This document shows, one piece after another, positions 4,520 to 12,636 of a DNA stretch of 32,257 nt. This DNA comes from an uncultured Sporosarcina sp. (GTDB taxonomy: Bacteria; Bacillota; Bacilli; Bacillales_A; Planococcaceae). The position numbers and the translations under genes are program-made. Within the stretch, counting starts at the first letter, position 1; every line of letters starts with the position of its first letter. The DNA lies in the NCBI GenBank assembly GCA_947644645.1, contig CANSAF010000031.1, forward strand, positions 1 through 32,257, read 5' to 3'. The notes below the pieces were generated by a model. That model searched no databases and was not told the origin of the DNA. It saw only the letters and a program-made list of their open reading frames with translations.

Positions 4520-6421
4520 CTACAGTTTTCTAAGTAAATGCATTTGTAAGGCATGTACTGTTTTTAACATTGTTTTTAATTCATCTCTTTCCCAACGGCG
4601 AATCTTATGAAAGTGAATGGTCGTGGTACTTTGTTTGTTTTGTAGATGTCTTTTCCATGATAATTGAATTCTTGCCTTTAAAGCGACTTCATATGCGTGG
4701 CGAATATCGACCGCAAATCCCTCAGACAATTCTTTCGCGTCAACGAGTCCTCTTAATAACTGTAAAGGCGTGTGATTGATCAAATTTTTTTGGATGCCAA
4801 GAATTTGTAAGCAATGGTGCATTGGAAAAAGCGCGTTTAACTTAATATCAATGGTCTCATATTTTTCTTTTGTTTTAAATCTTTGAAAGAAGCTCGGTTC
4901 AAATTGAGGAATCGGATTATTTTGTTCTTGCCTTGCCATATAATAAAGGAAAGTTTGAGCAGACTTAAATTTTTGCTGCACCATTGCTGTAAAATTTTTA
5001 TCAATAGAATGATCCCCATATAAAAATCTAAAGGATAGAAAATTATAGCCGAGTAGGATTTGTTCATCGGTTGTTTGGACAAACCATGTTTGTAAACGAG
5101 TTTCCCAGTCTGAAAGAGAGCCGCGCCAAATTTCTTCACTTGCCATCATTTTTCCATCGCATTTTTTATAGCCTGCTTGCACTAAATATTGAACAATTTT
5201 TTCACCTAATAAAAAGAAATACTTTGCAGTTTTTTGACTGGTACCATTCCCATAAACAAGAAAATGATCTTGATCGGTTAACATAAATTGTTCCCCCCGT
5301 GCTCCACTCCCCATTTGGTACCAAGCAAAAGGAACTGGTGGGACACCGTAGCCTTCCTCTTCTAAAGTTTTCACAGCAAGTCCAACACAATGTCTTGCGA
5401 GGCGGTCATATAATTGAGTAATAATTTCCAAAGTATGAATGGTAGAAATTTCATCTGCAATCAAATTCGTCAATACATTATAAATAGCGTCTTTCACGAT
5501 TGGTAAATCATCGTAGGAAGCATTTTCAATCGTTTTTAAAATGCCCATTGCACCGCGGTCTCTTTTAGAAATTAAGTTTTGAAAAGTAATCATCCCGATC
5601 ACTCGACCTTGCTCGACAACAGGTAAATGTTTAATGCGATGATTAAAAAAGCTTGCCAACACATTGTAGTAATGTGTATGAGGAGAAATTGTAAATGGCG
5701 ATTGGGTCATAATGTCGATCGCAGATGCTTGTGTTGATAAACCTTTACTAAGTACTCTTTGCACGAGATCTTTTTCGGTAATAATTCCGATTAATTGTTC
5801 TTGTTGATCAACGACTAAAACAGAACTAACGGATTTTTCTATCATCAAACGAGCCACTTCTTGAATAGGCATATTGGATTGAATGGTGATGGCTGGTTTA
5901 TGCATGAAATCTTTCGCTTTACGAATAAATGATTCACTTTCTCCCCAAGTATTCCCAAATTTGACTTGTTCACCGAGTGTCGCGTAGATATGTCCAAGAC
6001 GAGCAGCAGCTTTTCCCAATAAATATTTTTTCACAGAAGCGTCAACTAATCTTTCTTTGATAACCATACCTGGAACTTGTAAACAATAACTATCTTCTAC
6101 AATTTCTAATTCAAAATGATGTTGGTGAAGCGCGTCTGTTCTCTCACCTAAATAATGTGCAATATGAGAAAGTCCAAGCATTTCTCCTTCTTGTAACACT
6201 TCCAAAAGTACCGAAAGTCTATCTTCACGTTCGATAAAAACATCGATTTTCCCTTCGAGAACGATTAAGATGCCTTCATCTGATGTTTTAAAATAAGTTA
6301 GTCGATCGCCCTTCTGATAGTGTTTTAATTCGCATTGCTGGATGAACTGTTCAATCTTAGATTCATGAATATTTTTAAATAAAGTATGTTTGGAAATTTG
6401 ATGATACTGTTCCACTTTCAT
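4520..6421 (-). CDS. cNMP-binding/CBS/DUF294 putative nucleotidyltransferase
   Basis: A 633-residue multidomain cytosolic protein. A cyclic-nucleotide-binding-like domain lies at about 10-135. A pair of CBS domains follows at about 170-290 (VLVVDQQEQLIGIITEKDLV; HLPVVEQGRVIGMITF). Then comes a DUF294 nucleotidyltransferase domain with GSGARGE (371-377) and TDQDH (382-386), giving the Gly-Ser and acidic-pair signature of the polymerase-beta fold, and a DUF294 C-terminal domain at about 480-630. Homologues resemble GlnD-type uridylyltransferases, so it may modify a partner protein in response to adenine or cyclic nucleotides. The target is unknown; the adjacent symporter is the obvious candidate (inference). 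A hairpin lies between it and the symporter gene. Confidence 0.85.
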   Translation of the reverse strand: MKVEQYHQISKHTLFKNIHESKIEQFIQQCELKHYQKGDRLTYFKTSDEGILIVLEGKIDVFIEREDRLSVLLEVLQEGEMLGLSHIAHYLGERTDALHQHHFELEIVEDSYCLQVPGMVIKERLVDASVKKYLLGKAAARLGHIYATLGEQVKFGNTWGESESFIRKAKDFMHKPAITIQSNMPIQEVARLMIEKSVSSVLVVDQQEQLIGIITEKDLVQRVLSKGLSTQASAIDIMTQSPFTISPHTHYYNVLASFFNHRIKHLPVVEQGRVIGMITFQNLISKRDRGAMGILKTIENASYDDLPIVKDAIYNVLTNLIADEISTIHTLEIITQLYDRLARHCVGLAVKTLEEEGYGVPPVPFAWYQMGSGARGEQFMLTDQDHFLVYGNGTSQKTAKYFFLLGEKIVQYLVQAGYKKCDGKMMASEEIWRGSLSDWETRLQTWFVQTTDEQILLGYNFLSFRFLYGDHSIDKNFTAMVQQKFKSAQTFLYYMARQEQNNPIPQFEPSFFQRFKTKEKYETIDIKLNALFPMHHCLQILGIQKNLINHTPLQLLRGLVDAKELSEGFAVDIRHAYEVALKARIQLSWKRHLQNKQSTTTIHFHKIRRWERDELKTMLKTVHALQMHLLRKL

Positions 6422-6501: not shown

Positions 6502-8043
6502 TTAACTTTCTAATTCTTTGAAGCCAACTTCAGCTTTAAATTTAACTTCCGCATAGCTAATTTCATCTTTTGCACGTGAGGAAACAAGCGTACCGATAAT
6601 TGCTGCTAAAAATCCAGCAGGTACGGAAATGATGGCTGGGTTTTCAAGTGGAAAAATTGGATTTCCAACGAAGAAAGCCGCGCCTTCAACAGGATTAATC
6701 ACGTTAGGGCTCACTGCAACTAAAATTAGTGCGGTAAATAAACCTACCAGCATTGAAGCAACTGCGCCTGTCGTATTAAATCGTTTCCAATAAATTGTAA
6801 ACAATATCGTTGGAACGTTGGCGGAAGCTGCAATACAGAAAGCAAGAGAGACTAAAAAGGCTACGTTCATTTTCTCTGCACCAAGCGCCAGTAAGATTGA
6901 AATGACAGCAACGCTAAGTGCTGCGATTCGTGCCGCATTCACTTGTTGCTTTTCTGTTACTTTTCCTTTTTTAATAATTTCACCGTATAAGTCATGGGCA
7001 ATTGCGGAAGCACCTGATAATACAAGTCCTGCAACAACTGCTAGAATTGTTGCGAATGCTACAGCTGCAACGAAAGATTCTAAAGCATCCCCGCCGAGTA
7101 TTCCGGCAAGCATTGGTGCGGCCATATTACCGGCTGCGTTTTCTGCAACAATCGCGTCCGCTCCTACAAATTTAGCAGCGCCGAAACCGAGGAAAATCGT
7201 CAACACATAAAATAGTCCAATAATCCAAACAGCATACACGACGGATGAACGTGCTGTTTTCGCGTCTTTTACGGTAAAGAAGCGCATTAAAATATGTGGT
7301 AATCCTGCAGTTCCGAGGACAAGTGCGATCAGCACAGAAATGAGTCCAATCGGATCTTTATAAACAACACCTGAGTGAAGGAATGCCTCCCCGTGAGGCG
7401 TAGCAGTTCGCATGGCATCGAACATACCGATAAAATTAAAATTAAATTTAAGTAAAACAAGGAAAGAAATAATAATTGTCCCAGCCATGAGTAAAATTGC
7501 TTTGACAATTTGTACCCAGCTTGTAGCAGTCATGCCACCAAAAAGTACATAAATTGTCATCATAAAACCAACAATCAAAACAGATAACCAATAATCGATG
7601 CCGAATAGTAACTTAATCAGTGCTCCAGCACCTACAAGTTGTGCAAGCATATAAAACAACACAATTGTAATTGTATTTAAAGCGGCGGCTCCGCGAATTT
7701 TTCGCGCATGGAAACGAGCACCAATCATATCCGCCATCGTAAATTTCCCAAGATTTCGTAGCGGTTCAGCAATTAAAAATAAAACAACTAAGTAAGCCGT
7801 TAACCAACCTACACTATAATAAAATCCGTCAAATCCATTTAAAGAAATGGCCCCTGCAATTCCGAGGAAGGAAGCAGCTGATAAATAGTCTCCTGCAATC
7901 GCCATTCCATTTTGCCAACCAGTTAAAGAACCACCCGCTGTATAAAAATCACTCGCTGTTGTCGTTTGTTTAGCTGCCCAATACGTAATCGCAAGTGTGA
8001 GTCCGATGACACCAACGAAAATAATGATAGAAATAAAACTCAT
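6502..8043 (-). CDS. actP: Cation:acetate symporter (SSS family)
   Basis: A 513-residue sodium:solute symporter of the ActP/YwcA type with about 13 transmembrane helices. Characteristic stretches include the N-terminal TTTASDFYTAGGSLTGWQNG, AGDYLSAASFLGIAG, and the conserved GLPHILMRFFTV after helix 6. These are the hallmarks of the acetate/monocarboxylate branch of the SSS family. The upstream DUF485 partner 12 bases away matches the yjcH-actP arrangement of Escherichia coli. It should import acetate with Na+ or H+ when preferred sugars are absent, consistent with the cre box upstream. ATG is preceded by AAGGGGGAAG. Substrate specificity could extend to propionate or pyruvate. Confidence 0.88.
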   Translation of the reverse strand: MSFISIIIFVGVIGLTLAITYWAAKQTTTASDFYTAGGSLTGWQNGMAIAGDYLSAASFLGIAGAISLNGFDGFYYSVGWLTAYLVVLFLIAEPLRNLGKFTMADMIGARFHARKIRGAAALNTITIVLFYMLAQLVGAGALIKLLFGIDYWLSVLIVGFMMTIYVLFGGMTATSWVQIVKAILLMAGTIIISFLVLLKFNFNFIGMFDAMRTATPHGEAFLHSGVVYKDPIGLISVLIALVLGTAGLPHILMRFFTVKDAKTARSSVVYAVWIIGLFYVLTIFLGFGAAKFVGADAIVAENAAGNMAAPMLAGILGGDALESFVAAVAFATILAVVAGLVLSGASAIAHDLYGEIIKKGKVTEKQQVNAARIAALSVAVISILLALGAEKMNVAFLVSLAFCIAASANVPTILFTIYWKRFNTTGAVASMLVGLFTALILVAVSPNVINPVEGAAFFVGNPIFPLENPAIISVPAGFLAAIIGTLVSSRAKDEISYAEVKFKAEVGFKELES

Positions 8044-8055
8044 ACGACTTCCCCC

Positions 8056-8376
8056 TTATTTTACGATGTGTTTTTTTATAATTTCTTCTACGTCTTTATC
8101 AAATTCTTTTGCTTTGTTCATATAAATTGATGTGAGCACCCATACCATAACAAAAATGCTGAAGGAATAAATCCAAGTCCATGTCATCCAGCCGATTGCA
8201 CGGATTTCAAGAAGGGAAGTATAACTTGTTAAAACAGGTAATGTAAAAAATACTAAAAAGAAAAAAATGACATATGGTGTTGTAAATCTGTGTTTGCGTT
8301 TCACAAGGCTTTTAAATTCTTCCGTTTGAATGGTGTACTCATAATCGATTTTTTGTTCATTCATTTTTTGACTCAT
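8056..8376 (-). CDS. DUF485 membrane protein, partner of acetate symporter
   Basis: A 106-residue protein of the DUF485 (YjcH-like) family. Two transmembrane helices (about 35-55 and 68-90) sit between a charged N-terminus and a Lys/Asp/Glu-rich tail. DUF485 genes almost always precede an SSS-type acetate symporter, as here, and are thought to be accessory subunits; the mechanism is unproven. ATG 8376 has GGGAGATGGGATC before it. It is the first gene of the minus-strand acetate operon. Confidence 0.85.
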   Translation of the reverse strand: MSQKMNEQKIDYEYTIQTEEFKSLVKRKHRFTTPYVIFFFLVFFTLPVLTSYTSLLEIRAIGWMTWTWIYSFSIFVMVWVLTSIYMNKAKEFDKDVEEIIKKHIVK

Positions 8377-10226: not shown

Positions 10227-10233
10227 GAAAAAA

Positions 10234-10267
10234 TGGGAAAGTCTACAAAGGCTTTCCCAACTTTTTT
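10234..10267 (+). terminator. Bidirectional terminator between multicopper oxidase and lipA
   Basis: The stem TGGGAAAG (10234-10241) / CTTTCCCA (10252-10259) has T-rich sequence on the plus side and, read on the minus strand, TTTTTTC after the stem. It can end transcription of both convergent genes. Confidence 0.85.
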
Positions 10268-10273
10268 AAAATA

Positions 10274-11224
10274 CTATGATTCAAATGTAAAATCGATTTC
10301 TTTCTGTTCTTGAGCTTCTACATTTTTCATATAATCAATGCGGCGTTGTCGTGAGGATTGGTTGACTTGTTCATCCGCGTGATAAGACGATCTAACAAGT
10401 GGACCGGATTCACAATGGTCAAATCCTTTACTCAACGCAATTTCTTTCAACTCCGCAAATTCATCTGGATGGTAATAACGTTCTACTTTTAAATGATTTT
10501 TAGTTGGTTGCAAATATTGTCCAATGGTCATGATATTGACATTATGTGCGCGTAAATCGTCCATTGCTTGAATGATTTCTTCTTTTTCTTCACCTAATCC
10601 GACCATAATGCTAGATTTTGTCGGCGTATTTGGTGAGATTTCTTTTACGCGTTGAAGGAGCGTAAGAGAACGATCGTACATGGCACGGGCACGTACTTTT
10701 TTCGTTAATCTTCTAACGGTTTCGATATTATGGTTGAAAATATCGGGCTCACTGGACATTAAAGTATGTAAACTTTCATAATCACCTTTCATATCAGAAG
10801 GTAAAATTTCCACTGTACATGCTGGATTTTTTCTACGGATGGCACGCACTGTTTCAGCAAAAACTGCAGCCCCGCCGTCTTTTAAGTCATCTCGTGCAAC
10901 TGCCGTCACGACAACATGTTTTAAACCCATGATTTCCACAGAATCAGCAACGCGCTCAGGTTCTCCCCAATCTAACTCATTTGGTAATCCAGTTTTAACA
11001 GCACAAAAACGACAGCCACGCGTACAAGTATCCCCAAGAATCATAAATGTCGCCGTTTTTCTTTCACTCCAGCATTCATGAATATTTGGGCATCTTGCTT
11101 CTTCGCATACTGTATTCAATTTTTTGTCTCTCATTAAATTTTTTAATCCAGTGTAAGATTTATTCGTATTTAATTTGATTTTCAGCCATTCAGGTTTACG
11201 CATGTATTCTTCTTGTTTTGTCAT
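10274..11224 (-). CDS. lipA: Lipoyl synthase
   Basis: A 316-residue radical SAM enzyme that inserts two sulfurs into octanoyl groups carried on lipoyl domains. The auxiliary cluster cysteines C40, C45 and C51 ([12 protein letters not shown]) and the radical-SAM cluster C67, C71 and C74 (CTRGCRFC) are visible. The C-terminal SSYHAD carries the conserved serine. The length is slightly above the usual 298-310 because of a charged tail. It starts three bases after the lipM stop, so it is the second gene of a lipM-lipA operon. It acts in the cytoplasm on GcvH and 2-oxoacid dehydrogenase E2 subunits. Its expression probably depends on the TPP riboswitch upstream of lipM. Confidence 0.95.
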
Positions 11225-11227
11225 TGT

Positions 11228-12079
11228 TTATACACGTCCTTCAATAGATGATTGGAGAGAAAACTTTTGCTTTGTTGCATACTTTTCTTCAGCTAACTGA
11301 TGTACTTCATCCCATTGGGCATTTGTCAGTTCGATAGGTTTAAATTGAACATCTAGCCCCGTTTGAAAACCTTTATAAAATGCATCCACTAACAATTCAT
11401 ACGTATGTTTTTTATTCGTAATTTGATTAATCGCAATGGCTTTAGTGGAAAATGCATGACGCTTTCGTTCCCTCACTTGTTCAGAAGGAAAACGGAAAAG
11501 GTCAAATAACATTTTTTCATTAATGCTCATTGGAATGGATCCATGTTGTAGTAAAATCCCGTCTTTTCGAGTTTGTGCATTCCCCGATAATTTTTTGCCA
11601 TCTACAATCATTTCATAATAGGCGACTTGTTCGAAACATACGGCAGACCGGTCTTTACTTCTAACATCTCTAGAAGGATAGGCATAATCTGCTTGAATGC
11701 CTAAATTTCGATAACCTTCCATAATTCCTTTCGTTAAAACATGATAGGCTTCACGAACCGATCTAGGAATATTCGGGTGATCTTCAGTGATAACGATGCT
11801 ATATGTAAGTTCATCGTCATGAAGAACAGCGCTACCACCTGTTAATCGCCGTACGAAATCACAGTTGTATCGACTCACTGCGTCCAAGTCGACTTGCTCT
11901 TCAACTTTTTGAAAACGCCCTACAGATAAACTCGGTGCATTCCATCCGTAAAAACGTAAAGTAGGCGGAATGTCTCCTTTTTTATGCCAATTTAATAAGG
12001 CTTCATCCATTGCCATGTTAATCGCAGCATCGTGAAAGCCCGTATTTAAAAATCCCCATTGTTCTTGTATGACAACCAC
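11228..12079 (-). CDS. lipM: Octanoyl-[ACP]:protein N-octanoyltransferase (LipM)
   Basis: A 283-residue member of the BPL/LplA/LipB fold that moves octanoate from acyl carrier protein to GcvH in the Bacillus-type lipoate pathway. Motifs are RRLTGGSAVLHDDELTYS near 77-94, catalytic C148 in SAVCFE, and GKKLSGNAQTR with K163, arranged as in Bacillus subtilis LipM (C150) rather than LplJ or LipL. The start is unusual. The only standard in-frame start after the upstream stop is GTG at 12079, immediately against AGGAA. An in-frame ATA three codons later has normal spacing to AGGAAG and aligns with the Met of B. subtilis LipM. The upstream leader holds a TPP riboswitch and its terminator. Confidence 0.9.
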   Translation of the reverse strand: MVVIQEQWGFLNTGFHDAAINMAMDEALLNWHKKGDIPPTLRFYGWNAPSLSVGRFQKVEEQVDLDAVSRYNCDFVRRLTGGSAVLHDDELTYSIVITEDHPNIPRSVREAYHVLTKGIMEGYRNLGIQADYAYPSRDVRSKDRSAVCFEQVAYYEMIVDGKKLSGNAQTRKDGILLQHGSIPMSINEKMLFDLFRFPSEQVRERKRHAFSTKAIAINQITNKKHTYELLVDAFYKGFQTGLDVQFKPIELTNAQWDEVHQLAEEKYATKQKFSLQSSIEGRV

Positions 12080-12170
12080 TTCCTATTTGTCTTTTAAAAC
12101 GATTTTTCATTTCCAAATTTCAAATGCTAAAGCTGACTATGATGCAAATAAAATCCCCCTTTTATTGAAT

Positions 12171-12207
12171 AAAAAAAGACTGCGCTCTTGGATATAGGAG
12201 GCAGTCT
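12171..12207 (-). terminator. Riboswitch-controlled terminator in lipM leader
   Basis: On the minus strand AGACTGC (12207-12201) pairs with GCAGTCT (12184-12178), extended by GAG/CTC, and is followed by seven T residues. A competing antiterminator is available: CAGTCT (12230-12225), just 3' of the aptamer, is complementary to the AGACTG of the terminator's left arm. This arrangement predicts premature termination when TPP is bound. Confidence 0.85.
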
Positions 12208-12230
12208 CATAGATAATCTTAATTAGACTG

Positions 12231-12310
12231 TACTTCCTCACGCTGGGATTATCCAGATCGAGTACGAAGGGTCAAAAAATTCTCTCAGCCAAGAAAATGG
12301 CTCCCCTAGT
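12231..12310 (-). promoter_or_regulatory. TPP riboswitch (THI element) aptamer upstream of lipM-lipA
   Basis: Read on the minus strand, the conserved TPP aptamer landmarks appear in order: ACTAGGGGAGCC, then GGCTGAGA, then GACCCTT, then GATCTGGATAAT, then CCAGCGTGAGGAAGT. All core nucleotides that I know for the thi-box are present, so the aptamer looks functional. It is oriented toward lipM with no gene between; the following XRE gene lies on the other strand and is transcribed away. TPP riboswitches normally control thiamine synthesis or transport genes, so lipM-lipA is an unexpected target. A TATTAT -10-like hexamer lies just upstream at about 12315-12320 (minus strand). Confidence 0.93.
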
Positions 12311-12636
12311 GCGCATAATATTCAATGATATTTTCATTGTATCGTTCTGAAAGAAATAAGTAAAGACTCTGATTAATGGTAACATTGCTATATAACAGAC
12401 TGGTGGAGTATGGAGAATTGCTGTTGATTGAGTGATATTTTTCATCAGAGTAAGCTTATTAACTTATCGATAAAAGTTGTTCATGCTTGCCTGTATTTAT
12501 CTATCAAATATTAGAATATTGCTGTGCAATACATATGATAAAATGATTTTACATGGAGAAATAGGGCAATGTAAAAGAAGTTAGGTCGTCTTGTTTCAAG
12601 CTTTAACGTAGTCTGAAAGTGAAGGGAGGAAGAAAG
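12311..12636. other. Intergenic region upstream of riboswitch and XRE gene
   Basis: This gene-free AT-rich stretch should hold both divergent promoters. For the riboswitch transcript (minus), TATTAT just upstream of the aptamer is a good -10, with a poor -35. For the XRE gene (plus), TTAGAA and TATGAT with 17-base spacing near 12510-12540 are plausible. Nothing else is recognisable. Confidence 0.3.

Follow-up and report, generated by a model that had tools for sequence, protein, structure and literature searches.

The window, by which we mean the whole stretch of 32,257 nucleotides that was analysed, contains a predicted TPP riboswitch directly in front of the lipoate synthesis genes lipM and lipA. 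The features of this region are as follows.

12336..12364, minus strand: likely promoter, TTTACT-17-TACAAT, from a consensus scan only (9/12 matches); it ends 18 nt before the aptamer
12218..12317, minus strand: TPP riboswitch aptamer RF00059, full length, 69 bits, with covariation across 31 lipM leaders
12225..12238, minus strand: antiterminator 5′ strand, AGGA plus CAGUCU, able to pair with the terminator's 5′ arm (duplex −11.5 kcal/mol)
12171..12207, minus strand: intrinsic terminator, stem 12207-12177, AGACUGCC...GCAGUCU, then a U run to 12171
12155..12163, minus strand: orphan ribosome-binding-site-like AAAAGGGGG, read from the sequence, after the terminator and far from the lipM start
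11228..12079, minus strand: lipM, lipoate/octanoyl transferase family, 283 aa (PF21948, 141.1 bits; listed with a GTG start)
10274..11224, minus strand: lipA, lipoyl synthase (TIGR00510 equivalog, 411.6 bits against a cut-off of 310.25)
10228..10259, minus strand: probable terminator after lipA, GGGAAAG...CTTTCCC followed by a T run, read from the sequence and unscored

LipM and LipA constitute the endogenous lipoate pathway of Bacillota, as in Bacillus subtilis. The LipA protein of the window has both Cys motifs, one of them CTRGCRFC, which are presumably those of lipoyl synthase. LipM is a putative octanoyltransferase, an assignment that is based on its membership of the LplA/LipB catalytic fold family PF21948 (141.1 bits) together with an invariant Cys residue. 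This residue, Cys148, which we take to be the octanoyltransferase nucleophile, is conserved in 135 of 135 LipM rows, and a Lys column is likewise invariant (135/135). Four lipoate ligase models of NCBIfam match LipM, none of them at cut-off, and no model for LipM is among the matches. The exact start of lipM is uncertain (12079-12070): the ATG of the related genome G046 corresponds to ATA in the window, and the listed GTG upstream of it is poorly spaced from the ribosome-binding site. In the window's genome lipA is a single match, and the LipM-related matches are lipM itself and one lipoate-ligase-like gene. The upstream neighbour is a divergently oriented gene for an HTH regulator, and the downstream neighbour is a convergently oriented multicopper oxidase gene. 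Because of this divergent and convergent arrangement of the flanking genes, the riboswitch and lipM-lipA look like a transcription unit of their own.

The aptamer (12317-12218) matches RF00059 over its full length with 69 bits (E 9.2e-12; gathering score 54.3) and nothing else in the window reaches an Rfam gathering score. A complete thi-box aptamer had been described here by the sequence-only reading, an earlier set of notes on this DNA; the Rfam match bears this out and moves the 5′ start to 7 nt outside the range that had been assigned. The same reading had proposed an antiterminator in which CAGTCT pairs with AGACTG. That pairing is present (12230-12225 with 12207-12202) and turned out to be longer than proposed, comprising 10 bp in two blocks, CAGTCT/AGACTG and AGGA/UCCU. 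AGGA (12238-12235), located partly in the 3′ strand of P4 and partly in the junction between P4 and P1, pairs with UCCU in the terminator arm, and of CAGUCU (12230-12225) only C12230 belongs to P1. Folded as a hairpin, CAGUCU/AGACUG reaches −5.4 kcal/mol. At −11.5 kcal/mol the complete duplex is among the weaker antiterminators of the 31 leaders described below, and switching may perhaps be weaker in the window, where the antiterminator shares just one base with P1, in addition to P4 and junction bases.

The terminator is a stable hairpin with a U run (−12.4 kcal/mol, z −4.8), and none of 200 shuffled sequences was equally stable, in agreement with the intrinsic terminator that had been read at this position. 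A terminator consensus scan of the leader, which has a loop limit of 8, did not list the hairpin 12207-12177, probably because its 10-nt loop exceeds that limit. Between terminator and lipM lie 91 nt (12170-12080), so that the earlier estimate of about 92 bases was correct, and the view that no gene intervenes also holds in that no ORF of at least 80 aa was found in this gap. A promoter scan of 801 nt at the leader returned 4 sites against 2.5 in shuffled sequences and listed none in the 91 nt after the terminator; this stretch may nevertheless contain a promoter that the scan missed.

To define how widely this arrangement is conserved, we scanned 135 distinct lipM loci, in sets of 87, 28 and 20, with a model built from 30 TPP aptamers, three of which precede lipM in the window's genus. 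The scan of the 87 loci also took in 10 lipA-centred loci and one duplicate. The sample is not random, since the loci were the best-scoring ones or were picked by hand: the window's family, represented by 261 genomes, contributes 103 of the 135, and 158 family genomes were left out in all, including G149, G157, G158, G162 and G169, for which lipM coordinates were not listed and which belong to genus g13, possibly Planococcus. A TPP riboswitch was found directly before lipM in 31 of the 135 loci (16, 13 and 2 in the respective sets), each scoring above 68 bits; weak matches of 15.0 and 9.4 bits in the set of 28 and of 10.8 bits in the set of 20 were not counted. All positives belong to three genera of a single family, namely the window's genus with 3 (the window's genome G000, G046 and G051), g5 with both loci examined, and g13 with 26 of 41 examined. 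Rfam RF00059 confirmed all 11 further positive loci that were re-tested (72.7-79.3 bits) as well as those of G046 and G051, and found nothing in the negative loci L028 and L009. The order riboswitch-lipM-lipA, with no thi gene in between, is conserved in 31 genomes of three genera, which is what the sequence-only reading had suggested looking for in relatives.

The distribution of the riboswitch follows gene organization. In 37 of the 135 loci lipA adjoins lipM, and 31 of these 37 are led by the riboswitch. No riboswitch precedes lipM in any of the 98 loci in which lipA was not seen beside it (L099 ends 122 nt after lipM and could still have lipA). Among the g13 loci examined, all 26 lipM-lipA operons have the riboswitch and all 15 solitary lipM genes are without it; counted together with g5, it is carried by 28 of 28 operons examined. 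In the window's genus LipM is usually encoded by a solitary gene, and a riboswitch precedes this gene in none of the 26 such loci scanned. The riboswitch goes with the lipM-lipA operon and not with lipM as such. Operons that lack it occur in G006, Virgibacillus alimentarius, S. fordii, two Listeria species and G289. A degenerate riboswitch in G006, V. alimentarius or S. fordii was considered and rejected, as the best match in an unfiltered full-model search reached 12.1 bits (E 0.075). For the lipM-lipA operon, G006 is the nearest relative of G051, and its lack of a riboswitch shows that the riboswitch is dispensable.

In a LipM tree, all 31 riboswitch-associated proteins fall into one clade of 36 of the 135 rows (SH-aLRT 98) and none among the 99 rows outside it, although the method flagged long branches for the group of the window and for the Listeria rows. 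A LipA tree of 28 rows gave the same grouping. Each of the 31 riboswitch genomes has one lipA. A second lipA acting as a backup was rejected, since none was found among 32 genomes, and weak radical-SAM matches occur only in G006, G051 and G159. The lipA of the riboswitch-led operon in G164 (C1:2684351-2685273) is split over two frames, reflecting either a frameshift or an assembly error. In G000, G046, G051 and G006 the operon seems to replace the solitary lipM and separate lipA that are usual for the genus, and the LipM proteins of G000 and G046 are nearest to that of V. alimentarius. The single lipA and the kinship of LipM suggest that these four genomes acquired the operon by horizontal transfer. 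Two of the other loci contain additional RNA elements: in L011 (Fictibacillus, 7901-8287) and L020 (Bacillus dakarensis, 7995-8297) a group I intron (RF00028) lies 1.1-1.2 kb after lipM, and each has, in addition, a glycine riboswitch some 5 kb upstream of that gene.

Next to the aptamer itself, the expression platform is retained in all 31 loci. Each of the 31 leaders contains a hairpin with a T-rich tail between the aptamer and lipM (−10.7 to −26.5 kcal/mol), and among 100 dinucleotide shuffles of each leader, 0 to 9 did equally well. In all 31, the 5′ arm of the terminator can pair with the 3′ side of the aptamer (−9.4 to −21.3 kcal/mol), as found in a search that was confined to the sequence from the P4-P1 junction or from the 3′ strand of P1 onward and that had no shuffle control. 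The sequences of the competing pairs differ by lineage: TGCAGTCTA pairs with TAGACTGCA in G046, GGAAGTGGT with ACCACTTTC in G051, and GGGAAGTGGT with ACCGCTTCCC in 11 g13 leaders. The competition between terminator and antiterminator has thus been kept despite sequence change between the lineages. In the aptamer alignment of 31 rows, 25 of which are distinct, 10 of 27 pairs have changed on both sides, a number that was not reached in any of 500 shuffles, a control that is inflated by kinship. These 27 pairs were named from the Rfam structure, with one Rfam pair omitted because it is not formed in the g13 rows. Pairing is kept in 93.9% of their cells, and two of the pairs do not form in 11 and in 13 of the 25 distinct rows. 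The sequence-only reading had also asked about co-variation in relatives, and it is present both as compensatory aptamer pairs and as terminator/antiterminator pairs of differing sequence. The distance from aptamer to lipM is 73-179 nt in all 31 loci, and no intervening gene was seen in the leaders read, including a set of 13. In 12 of the 31 leaders, at most about 33 nt separate the end of the terminator from lipM, as judged from lipM starts estimated by alignment, and a gap of this size is too small for a separate promoter. A promoter-like TTGACA-16-TAAGAT lies before the riboswitch of G051, and a stretch that by eye is closely similar to it lies directly before lipM in G006.

These features lead to a model in which RNA polymerase would start upstream of the aptamer. 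When TPP is lacking, the 3′ side of the aptamer (the P1 3′ strand and its neighbours) would pair with the terminator's 5′ arm and lipM-lipA would be transcribed; when TPP is bound, the aptamer would be locked, the terminator would form and transcription would stop before lipM. Since the antiterminator is drawn from the 3′ side of the aptamer, the element is expected to be an OFF switch, and TPP should stop lipM-lipA transcription. We consider it likely, with good confidence, that the riboswitch controls the transcription of lipM-lipA in this way; TPP binding and termination in vivo are what we infer here from the sequences. The predicted consequence is that more TPP should lead to less lipoate synthesis.

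The window's genome (3.36 Mb, 160 contigs) has seven TPP riboswitches, and the six others comprise five before thiamine genes and one before a pair of genes for an SDR protein and a monooxygenase. Their targets are YkoF with an NMT1-like gene, thiE, tenA-thiW (two aptamers), a YuaJ-type thiamine transporter, and the SDR/monooxygenase pair. The two aptamers before tenA-thiW are arranged in tandem (C75:5431-5538 and 5613-5702; L003, L005). The riboswitch in front of the SDR gene, which is followed by a luciferase-like monooxygenase gene, is found at C114:2839-2939 (L004) and also in G046 (L117); a role of this pair in thiamine metabolism is not obvious, and its Pfam check was done on the G046 copy. 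No thiC gene was found in the window's genome. In fact, thiC is absent from all 31 riboswitch hosts (G046 is a MAG of 90% completeness), and a lipoate ligase C-domain gene is present in all 31. In the absence of thiC, TPP would depend on the uptake or salvage of thiamine or its pyrimidine, and the presence of a lipoate-ligase-type gene implies that lipoate could be scavenged. High TPP may accordingly be read by these cells as the sign of a vitamin-rich setting, in which lipoate synthesis would be lowered and lipoate would be scavenged by the ligase. We regard this as the likeliest purpose of the switch, at about an even chance. The absence of thiC was rejected as a specific correlate of the riboswitch: the gene is absent from 190 of the 261 family genomes, 159 of which are outside the 31 and include 15 g13 genomes whose lipM has no riboswitch. 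It is at most a permissive condition.

The origin of the riboswitch was approached through an aptamer tree. The lipM aptamers of G000 and G046 lie near those that precede ykoF in the respective genome (69.7-73.3% identity), that of G051 lies near the thiE aptamer of V. alimentarius (78.5%), and those of g5 and g13 lie together. This hints at two or three recruitments of a TPP riboswitch to lipM-lipA; a topology with a single group for the lipM aptamers could not be rejected (p-AU 0.123). The switch of the window's lineage may have been captured from a thiamine-uptake leader of the ykoF type, leaving a ribosome-binding-site-like scar. As definite sources, the ykoF and thiE leaders were not retained: the aptamers are suggestive, but the similarity of the stretch after the aptamer to the ykoF leader is weak, and a tenI leader gave the highest z for G000, G046 and G051. 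A possible scenario, to which we give somewhat less than even weight, is that up to three independent events brought a TPP riboswitch to this operon (a ykoF type in the window's lineage, a thiE type in G051, and one in g5/g13), with TPP serving as a general vitamin-supply signal that sets the synthesis of a second cofactor.

The sequence-only reading had offered two accounts of the locus, and both can be judged against these data. One was that a thiamine gene had sat here and been deleted, leaving a relic; the switch would then be irrelevant to lipM. Some features would fit such a history: downstream of the terminator, G000 and G046 both have an orphan ribosome-binding-site-like stretch, which in G046 (GAAGGAGG) resembles the one before ykoF, and after each other the lipM aptamers of these two genomes are nearest to their own ykoF aptamers. 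After the aptamer the similarity to ykoF is weak, and a tenI leader is higher by z. Against this account stand the aptamer-lipM distances given above, with no gene between in the leaders read, and the fact that all 31 leaders keep an aptamer, a terminator and a matching antiterminator, with aptamer pairing maintained through double changes. Moreover, G000 and G046 share 81 of 100 aptamer positions versus 73 of 176 positions upstream. A dead relic is unlikely because the element is conserved and covarying and has lineage-specific terminators, and we give this account very little credence. The other account was that the TPP riboswitch controls lipM-lipA and thereby matches lipoate supply to TPP status. 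TPP and lipoate are indeed cofactors of the same 2-oxoacid dehydrogenase complexes, which is the attraction of this idea. Its first half, control by the riboswitch, is very probable in view of the 31 genomes, the covarying aptamer pairs and the terminator/antiterminator pairs of differing sequence. Its second half is not, because the OFF architecture of all 31 expression platforms predicts the opposite sign, and that more TPP would lead to more lipoate is highly improbable.

Two further explanations accept control by the riboswitch and differ in what it would be for. In the main rival on purpose, low TPP would cripple the E1 component of the 2-oxoacid dehydrogenases, and the switch would compensate for weak E1 activity by raising the lipoylation of E2, or of the glycine cleavage H protein. 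This predicts the same sign as the scavenging model and draws on the shared use of both cofactors by the same complexes, but extra lipoyl groups would presumably not restore apo-E1; the present data do not separate compensation from scavenging, and we consider compensation unlikely. It is also conceivable, if slightly less probable still, that the operon came to lie behind a TPP riboswitch by capture and is still under its control but gains little from it. The patchy occurrence outside g13 and g5 would fit this, as would the absence of the switch from G006 where the similar promoter-like stretch is kept. However, the presence of the switch in every one of the g13 and g5 lipM-lipA operons examined, with sequences that differ by lineage, speaks against it. 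Control in response to vitamin supply, with scavenging of lipoate when TPP is high, is the reading that we prefer.

The element belongs to a class of riboswitch that is known, and its conserved target is new. It has the same aptamer, antiterminator and terminator as the TPP riboswitches (THI elements, RF00059) that act through transcription termination on the thi genes of Bacillota. A 2022 review refers, in one of its passages, to TPP riboswitches as the most abundant single riboswitch class in bacteria, and in another to lipoic acid as lacking a validated riboswitch class (PMC10043782). According to the main text of a 255-genome survey, TPP riboswitch targets are thiamin biosynthesis and the transporters of thiamin and its precursors, and this main text, supplements aside, contains neither 'lipo' nor 'lip' (PMC3766115). 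In the open-access PMC literature, subscription papers and supplementary tables aside, we found no report of a TPP riboswitch in front of lipoate genes. If a conserved TPP switch governs the sole genes for lipoate synthesis in at least 31 species, this would represent cross-cofactor control by RNA and would connect, in a way open to experiment, two cofactors that serve the same dehydrogenase complexes. It would also mean that the class of a riboswitch need not by itself tell the pathway of the gene that it controls, and it suggests that TPP mimics may lower lipoate as well in such cells. The known targets of the TPP regulon make, salvage or transport thiamine, whereas the targets here are lipM and lipA. 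With the LipM-LipA pathway of the Bacillus subtilis type the locus shares a LipM-type transferase with an invariant Cys and a radical SAM LipA; compared with the usual form of that pathway, the two genes here make up one operon and LipM belongs to a clade of its own (36 of 135 rows, SH-aLRT 98). As in other coenzyme riboswitches, a coenzyme-sensing RNA precedes genes for cofactor synthesis, but here the coenzyme that is sensed is not the product of the genes that are controlled.
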